From: Natrarchaeobaculum sulfurireducens
GTDB lineage: Archaea > Halobacteriota > Halobacteria > Halobacteriales > Natrialbaceae
Assembly (NCBI RefSeq): GCF_003430825.1
Contig: NZ_CP024047.1
Span: forward strand, 2,914,001-2,978,000
Reading direction: 5' to 3'
DNA length: 64,000 bases
Shown here one piece after another: positions 46,452-52,507 of the stretch. A program made the translations under genes and the position numbers. Position 1 is the stretch's first letter. Every line of letters starts with the position of its first letter. The notes below the pieces were generated by a model. It did no database searches. It saw only the letters and a program-made list of their open reading frames with translations, and was not told the origin of the DNA.

Positions 46452-47784
<1,333 letters not shown>

Positions 47785-47786
<2 letters not shown>

Positions 47787-51010: not shown

Positions 51011-51316
51011 GTGAGCTCGAGTGACGACGGCGGCTACGTCCACGATCCGTCGGCTTTCGACGAAGACGGGACCCGTCAAGAAGAGGGCGACGACGACTGG
51101 GTCGACGATCCAGCCCACCCCACGACGGCCGATCGGGAGTTCGACTGGCGAGGGTGGACCCTCGTCGGCGTCATCGTCTTTGCGTTCATCGTCGCGCCGG
51201 TCGCAATCGTTCTGTGGCCACCGGACGTCGGCTACCTGTTCGCGCTGTTAATCCTCCCGCTAGTTCCGGCCGTACTGCTCGCGATTACCGCAGTCTGGGC
51301 GACGACGCGTCCCTGA
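51011..51316 (+). CDS. Two-helix haloarchaeal membrane protein
   Basis: A 101-residue protein from GTG 51011. An acidic N-terminal half (DDGGYVHDPSAFDEDGTRQE) leads to W-rich REFDWRGWTLVGVIVFAFIV and a second helix FALLILPLVPAVLLAITAVW. The layout matches a small haloarchaeal family I think is DUF7322. No function is known. It stands alone between the MDR gene and the Gln-rich gene. Confidence 0.72.
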   Translation: MSSSDDGGYVHDPSAFDEDGTRQEEGDDDWVDDPAHPTTADREFDWRGWTLVGVIVFAFIVAPVAIVLWPPDVGYLFALLILPLVPAVLLAITAVWATTRP

Positions 51317-51631
51317 CTGGTCGAATCTGAGTATCGCGGACGGCTCCAACTCGATAGCGACTGCACCGTCTCTCGAGGCGGGTGAAGCCGGACGACTCGA
51401 GTGCGTCGATCGTATCAAAACCACTGGAGTACTGGTTATCCCATAATTCCGACGCACCACACACCGGTATTATATTCCCGTCCGTGGTCGGCAACAGTGG
51501 GTCTTCCAGAGCCCAATTGGAGCGTTACGGACGACACGACGGACGAGCGGACAGACTGCGAGTGGCCACCCAAGAGTCACCACTGTCACACCGCCCCAGA
51601 CAGCATCCGCGTGCGAGGAGAGAACCTACCC
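51317..51631. promoter_or_regulatory. Promoter region of the Gln-rich gene, with an alternative GTG start
   Basis: A TATA-like tattatattc lies at about 51469-51478. A leaderless transcript from it would begin near 51497, where an in-frame GTG would add 45 residues to the Gln-rich protein. Otherwise the same promoter gives a leader of about 135 nt, with gaggag about 12 nt before ATG 51632. The extra residues (MGLPEPNWSVTDDTTDERTD) do not look strongly coding. Confidence 0.45.
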
Positions 51632-52507
51632 ATGAGCAGACAACAGCGACAGCCACGACAGCACGAACAGCAACACCAACAGCAACCCCAAGCGCAACAA
51701 CAGCCACAACAACAACAACGAGAATCCCAGCAGCAACAGCCACAACAGCAGGGCTTCCAGCAGCAACAACCACAACAGCAGCAGCCACAACAGCAGGGCT
51801 TCCAGCAGCAACAACCACAACAGCAGCAGCCACAACAGCAGGGCTTCCAGCAGCAACAACCACAACAGCAGCAACAGCCATCACAGCAGCAACCACGACA
51901 ACAACAACCACAGCACCAACAGCACCAACAGCACCAACAGCAGCAACCACGACAACAACAACCACAGCACCAACAGCACCAACAGCAGCAACCACGACAA
52001 CAACAGCAGATACCGCAGTCTCAACAGTCCCAGGGAGAACTTCAGCCACATCAACAACAGCAGATGCAGCCCGGACGCGGCCGACGACAGCAACCACAGC
52101 ACCAGCAGTTCGGGGGCGGTTCCGGAACGTCGATAGGACAGCAGTTCTCCCAGACAGTGCCACAGCAGATTCAGTCGGCCATCGAGGATCTGGACCGACT
52201 TGAGTCGGTTGCCGAGTTCGCAGACACCCAGGCGACGCGTCGGGGTGACGAGTACGCCGCTGGGATTGCAGATGCGCTGAAAGACGTCGCACATCTCCAG
52301 AAGGAGTTCATGATCGAAGAGAACCCACTCACCCAGGAGTTCAGTCAGTGCAGCCAGCAGCTCCTCCAGCAGGGAAGCCAACAGCTCCAGCAGTACCAGC
52401 AACCGGAGATGCAAGAGCTGGCCGACACGGCCGGTCGAGCCCTCGAGTCGGTCACCAGCGGCATCCAGTCGATGCCGACCGGCGGACATCAGCAGGGCCA
52501 GCGGTAA
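51632..52507 (+). CDS. Glutamine-rich low-complexity protein with a helical C-terminal domain
   Basis: A 291-residue protein. Residues 1 to about 160 are dominated by Gln with Pro, His, Arg, Gly and Phe, almost without acidic residues, which is extreme for a haloarchaeon. Three exact 15-residue blocks (GFQQQQPQQQQPQQQ-type) are followed by H/R-rich blocks (PRQQQPQHQQHQQ). After the linker FGGGSGTSIGQQFSQTVPQQ, residues about 165-291 form an alpha-helical domain (SAIEDLDRLESVAEFADTQA, YAAGIADALKDVAHLQKEFM). There is no signal or membrane segment. The composition resembles prion-like or phase-separating domains; function is unknown. Confidence 0.82.
   Translation: MSRQQRQPRQHEQQHQQQPQAQQQPQQQQRESQQQQPQQQGFQQQQPQQQQPQQQGFQQQQPQQQQPQQQGFQQQQPQQQQQPSQQQPRQQQPQHQQHQQHQQQQPRQQQPQHQQHQQQQPRQQQQIPQSQQSQGELQPHQQQQMQPGRGRRQQPQHQQFGGGSGTSIGQQFSQTVPQQIQSAIEDLDRLESVAEFADTQATRRGDEYAAGIADALKDVAHLQKEFMIEENPLTQEFSQCSQQLLQQGSQQLQQYQQPEMQELADTAGRALESVTSGIQSMPTGGHQQGQR
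51751..51885 (+). repeat. Tandem 45-bp repeats in the Gln-rich gene
   Basis: The marker gggcttccag recurs at 51751, 51796 and 51841, a 45-bp period. The intervening CAG/CAA/CCA codons are nearly identical between units. Further 30-40-bp units of another type (ccacgacaacaacaaccaca) follow near 51892-52010. Slippage would change length in steps of 15 codons without frameshift. Confidence 0.85.

Follow-up and report, generated by a model that had tools for sequence, protein, structure and literature searches.

Copper storage proteins (Csps) are homotetramers with 10–20 Cu(I) per chain, bound mainly by thiols in the bundle interior, and Csp3 is widespread in bacteria and archaea (PMC7558416). In halobacterial low-complexity regions, acidic residues average 34% (PMC6821194). 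We analyzed a window of 64,000 nucleotides from Natrarchaeobaculum sulfurireducens (the whole stretch of DNA under study) that contains an ORF for a Gln-rich protein with a folded C-terminal domain. This domain resembled Csp3 (BsCsp3, PDB 5fig/6wkt; MtCsp3, 5nqn) in its four-helix-bundle fold, with 1.6–2.1 Å rmsd over 102–107 residues and Z ~16.9, and was connected to it by profiles through intermediates. However, the window protein lacked Cys at all 15 putative copper-ligand positions of the haloarchaeal Csp-like group and had a long Gln-rich tail in addition.

Haloarchaea also possess DUF326 (PF03860) proteins, labeled 'four-helix bundle copper-binding protein', whose domain is homologous to that of the window protein. 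One such copy, 114 residues long, is encoded in the same genome (G000:C3:196496-196837; Pfam DUF326 E 1.4e-7). The DUF326 proteins are Cys-rich and tail-less; of 61 family genomes sampled, 55 contained one, whereas the tailed proteins occurred in 34 of 125. These tailed relatives formed two groups: group A, which showed Gln-rich tails and a Cys-poor core, and group B, which showed Gly/Gln/Met-rich flanks and a core with five cysteines.

We found no published description of a haloarchaeal Gln-rich or polyglutamine protein in the openly licensed literature, in line with the first-pass annotation, which knew of no described haloarchaeal protein of this type. The family is widespread but apparently undescribed. 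What is new here is best called a known Csp fold that has lost its defining ligands and is joined to an unusual Gln tail.

The Gln-rich tail and conservation of the gene

Table 1. Positions of the features at the Gln-rich locus (window coordinates).
Feature	Position	Strand	Remarks
TATA-like element TATTATAT	51468..51475	+	Kept in 3/3 congeners with the gene, as are downstream leader bases; putative promoter
Shine-Dalgarno-like GAGGAG	51615..51620	+	11 nt before ATG; putative ribosome-binding site
Whole ORF: Gln-rich tail plus Cys-free Csp-fold domain	51632..52507	+	291 aa, ATG start; G002 and G003 have an orthologous frame
Gln-rich low-complexity N-terminal tail, residues 1-164	51632..52123	+	60% Gln, 3 acidic residues; AlphaFold
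Three exact, adjacent 45-bp blocks (QPQQQGFQQQQPQQQ)	51737..51871	+	TRF period 45, score 270
Second tandem repeat, period 54 bp, 2.4 copies (QPRQQQPQHQQHQ...)	51863..51992	+	TRF
Four-helix bundle, Csp fold, residues 178-280	52163..52471	+	AlphaFold, Foldseek, VIA-align, profile links
Cys240, sole cysteine	52349..52351	+	One column off a Csp ligand position; retained in most of group A

The N-terminal half had been described by the first-pass annotation as Gln-rich and acid-poor, with three exact 45-bp tandem blocks. Both points were borne out: residues 1–157 contained 97 Gln (61.8%), 19 Pro (12%), 10 Arg (6%), and 9 His (6%), with a total of three Asp/Glu and no Asn, and the blocks were located with starts at 51737, 51782, and 51827. 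The longest uninterrupted Gln run in the tail was five residues. A stretch is usually called Q/N-rich when it has ~30 or more Gln plus Asn per 80 residues; the densest 80 residues of the tail had 57, which places the tail in this class. The pI was ~12 for the tail compared to 4.3 for the C-terminal part. AlphaFold gave a pLDDT of ~40–49 throughout the tail and no secondary structure, indicating that it is predicted to be disordered. The pattern (CAR)3-N3-(CAR)2-N3-(CAR)2 occurred only once in the 3.79-Mb genome, namely in the window ORF.

Codon usage within the ORF (51632-52507) was uneven: Gln codons strongly favored CAG in the folded part but not in the tail, with a CAG:CAA ratio of 57:45 in the tail and 19:3 in the last 115 residues. 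This mixture of CAA and CAG indicated that the tail is more than recent CAG slippage. Avoidance of CAG runs was also considered as a general rule; of 17 members, only two (L003 and L014) reached significance, so no claim is made.

Two congeners, G002 (whose contig is the Natrialbaceae MAG record LKMK01000009) and G003, kept the gene with flanking genes collinear with the window. The start peptide MS-x-QQRQPRQHEQ and the upstream element TATTATA(T/C) were common to these two and the window. For the three congener pairs, dN/dS of the core was 0.08, 0.12, and 0.16. The congener tails were heavily rearranged and saturated at synonymous sites, and all remained in frame. By this sequence comparison, the core is under purifying selection and the tail keeps its composition as its sequence and length drift. 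The tandem blocks had led to a prediction of length variation between strains; variation was indeed observed, in that the core was preceded by 178, 155, and 125 residues, although these values compare congeneric species rather than strains. In the complete genome of another congener, G001, the gene was absent, and collinearity ended after the dehydrogenase gene. Being patchy in this manner and present in a minority of genomes, the gene is dispensable. A missing or broken frame in relatives would have spoken against the earlier reading of this ORF as a real gene; instead, we observed a frame kept across genera, with a selected core.

The C-terminal domain and its missing cysteines

AlphaFold modeled the core as a confident four-helix bundle, with pLDDT >90 for most residues of the helices at 178–280. 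The compact helical domain that had been assigned to residues 165–291 is therefore present, albeit with slightly shorter helices. In Foldseek, the best seven matches were Csp structures or the same fold, and the top solved matches were Csp3 and Csp1. The best 25 rows from VIA-align likewise comprised Csps, Csp-fold proteins (3lmf, PA2107), or fusions carrying the Csp fold, with Z of 14.3–16.9 and rmsd mostly of 1.6–2.9, while the best other fold reached Z 12.3; since four-helix bundles are common, such Z values are less specific than they would be for rarer folds.

Pfam and NCBIfam searches with the window protein gave nothing significant, and neither PF03860 nor TIGR04401 appeared above cut-off (P0001, P0002). 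Searches of solved-structure sequences with the profiles of groups A and B retrieved only chance helical matches and no Csp. The link to Csps thus comes from a chain of profiles together with the fold, and not from a direct structure-sequence search. Profile-profile comparison gave E values of 2.7e-15 between groups A and B, 3.7e-23 between group B and the Csp-like group, and 1.9e-4 between group A and the Csp-like group, all in the same register. The direct similarity of group A to Csps was modest (47% probability with the original alignments) and leans on the group B intermediate and the fold. With core-only profiles, the A-Csp score was 43.4 (E 1.3e-7), whereas 40 column-shuffled controls reached at most 14.8 and the reversed profile gave 11.4; the core-only columns were, however, taken from the joint alignment, which may raise the A-Csp score somewhat. 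Furthermore, the Csp-like group profile found Csp3 among solved structures at 5e-21, and group B gave a weak match to TIGR04401, the copper-storage model for Csp1 (E 0.0015). The DUF326 protein of the same genome, used as a query, retrieved group B at ~1e-11, together with a single group A copy (2.8e-5). Sequence homology of the window domain to Csp/DUF326 is therefore well supported. Taken with the predicted fold, the structural matches, and the controls on the profile chain, these data indicate that the domain is very probably a Csp/DUF326 descendant.

We then defined the Csp cysteine columns of the joint alignment as the 15 columns where 50% or more of the Csp-like proteins have Cys; by homology to Csps, these columns would be copper ligands in the haloarchaeal proteins. 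Group B retained Cys at five of them and the window protein at none, with Ala at seven, Leu at four, and Met, Val, Ser, and Gly at one each. Because Csps hold their copper through thiols, the known storage mechanism is impossible for the window protein. Hence, with its defining cysteines absent, it is not to be classed with the copper storage proteins.

In an unrooted tree built on 111 columns, groups A, B, and Csp each fell on one side of a supported branch. The tree being unrooted, we infer the direction, loss rather than gain of cysteines, from how widely Csp3 is distributed and from sequences of intermediate character (L077, L081, L107-L113). Two of these, L077 and L081, are Csp-like proteins with partial cysteine loss that bridge canonical DUF326 to group B. 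The graded series of 15, 5, and 0 core cysteines offers a view of how a metal-storage fold can shed its metal and gain low-complexity tails. Moreover, automatic labeling as 'four-helix bundle copper-binding protein' would call for caution in members that lack the ligands.

Distribution of the family and shared traits of the tails

The group A profile matched 53 of 392 Halobacteriales genomes in the order-wide sample, covering 18 of 95 genera and four families, a count that includes group B-like proteins. Outside Halobacteriales, the phylum-wide sample yielded one weak partial match only. With relatives spread across many genera, the protein belongs to a lineage-spread haloarchaeal family and is not a one-off. 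Viral contigs contained no relative, and a viral origin was rejected.

Among the proteins measured, the N-terminal flanks of group A contained 30–58% Gln, 1–13% acidic residues, and almost no Asn, and they were unalignable between genera. Several members had a Gln-rich C-terminal flank as well. Gln-rich tails are thus a family-wide trait and not specific to the source organism. Set against the acidic average of halobacterial low-complexity regions (PMC6821194), these acid-poor tails are the reverse of the haloarchaeal rule, and this exception makes uncharged Gln-rich disorder at 4 M salt testable. The tails of other members were near neutral, with 0–13% Lys/Arg balanced by some acidic residues. 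His was scarce or nil in many group A tails, Met was almost absent from the window tail, and the tails of group B mostly contained 5–13% Met.

Group B (e.g., L020 and L025) resembled the window protein in having the same domain with low-complexity, Gln-containing, acid-poor flanks. It differed in that the five cysteines and an IARDSMFGPE motif were kept, in that the flanks were Gly/Met-rich and not Pro/His-rich, and in that UPRTase, DUF5828, and PHO4 genes adjoin in several genomes. Such shared neighbors were observed for group B genes in four genomes (L044, L045, L046, and L050); those of the L045 gene (4884-5801) encode a uracil phosphoribosyltransferase, a DUF5828 protein, and a PHO4 phosphate transporter. 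For group A, no neighbor was common across genera, and the genomic context offered no clue to function. In one member, L101 (G324:C1:1535152-1535949), two tandem four-helix domains followed a Gln-rich tail in a single 386-residue frame.

Possible roles of the protein

We propose that a Csp/DUF326 bundle lost every copper-ligand cysteine and would have been repacked with small hydrophobic residues, so that the rigid bundle was retained and copper storage was lost. By analogy with the tetrameric Csps, the bundle may be oligomeric and could act as a hub bearing several Gln/Pro/His/Arg tails that are long, disordered, and neutral to basic. Molar KCl screens electrostatic interactions. Since Gln side chains still form hydrogen bonds under such conditions, multivalent assembly is plausible: in near-saturating KCl, the uncharged tails may serve as multivalent stickers that drive self-assembly or assembly with the surrounding acidic macromolecules, in a scaffold or condensate role. 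As a whole, this explanation, a Cys-free Csp-fold scaffold displaying Gln tails for multivalent assembly, is one to which we give slightly less than an even chance. A scaffold function of the window protein, with its putative oligomerization, assembly, and partners, is put forward tentatively. The boldest version, in which stepwise ligand loss turned the Csp bundle into a Cys-free oligomeric hub whose Gln tails form condensates in the molar-KCl cytoplasm, as a charge-independent archaeal phase-separating scaffold, seems to us unlikely.

Alternatively, the bundle may have a minor function and the Gln tail may be a slippage-prone, tolerated appendage without any. Such neutral expansion would fit the tandem blocks, the free variation of tail length between congeners, and the patchiness of the gene. 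Nevertheless, the tails stayed high in Gln, low in acidic residues, and nearly free of Asn over many genera despite unrelated sequences, and some members are tailed on both sides of the core with the same composition. In a high-GC organism with an acidic proteome, neutral tails should drift from a Gln-rich composition, and the mixed CAA/CAG usage of the tail also argues against this explanation, which we regard as rather unlikely but deserving of some weight. Metal handling with new ligands, whereby tail His (Met in group B) and Cys240 would bind copper or another metal and preserve a copper link of the family after loss of the cysteine cage, could draw on the Csp-fold descent, the nine His of the window tail, and, in group B, the Met of the tails and the 5 of 15 core cysteines kept. 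However, the window tail is almost Met-free, many group A tails have few or no His, and the window core has no ligand left. The adjacent window genes (a DUF7853 protein, a NUDIX protein, a universal stress protein, and a zinc-type dehydrogenase) include no copper gene, and a separate, intact Csp-like protein is available for storage in the same genome. We therefore consider metal handling distinctly unlikely.

A prion- or amyloid-forming switch, as the first-pass annotation had suggested, is improbable. Like yeast-type Q/N-rich prion-like domains, the protein joins a Gln-dominated disordered segment to a folded domain, and its densest 80 residues are correspondingly rich in Gln; but this tail has no Asn, much Pro and Arg, and only short Gln runs. 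Binding of DNA, RNA, or the acidic proteome by a basic tail would be suggested by the 10 Arg against three acidic residues, yet the near-neutral tails of other members and the screening of electrostatics at molar KCl leave it a slim chance. As for a non-coding satellite or spurious frame, low-complexity repeats do open long frames on both strands. The homologous frame in many genera, the low core dN/dS, the conserved start and TATA-like element, and a tail composition retained across the family led us to reject it; at the sequence level it is ruled out, and its probability is close to nil.

Two further ORFs were observed near the Gln-rich gene. At 51011-51316 of the window lies a 101-residue membrane-protein-like ORF with no Pfam match, which is collinear with the Gln-rich gene in G002 and G003. 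About 4 kb upstream of that gene, a TnpB/Cas12f-like ORF (PF07282, E 1.8e-20) was found on the minus strand at 46737-47786.
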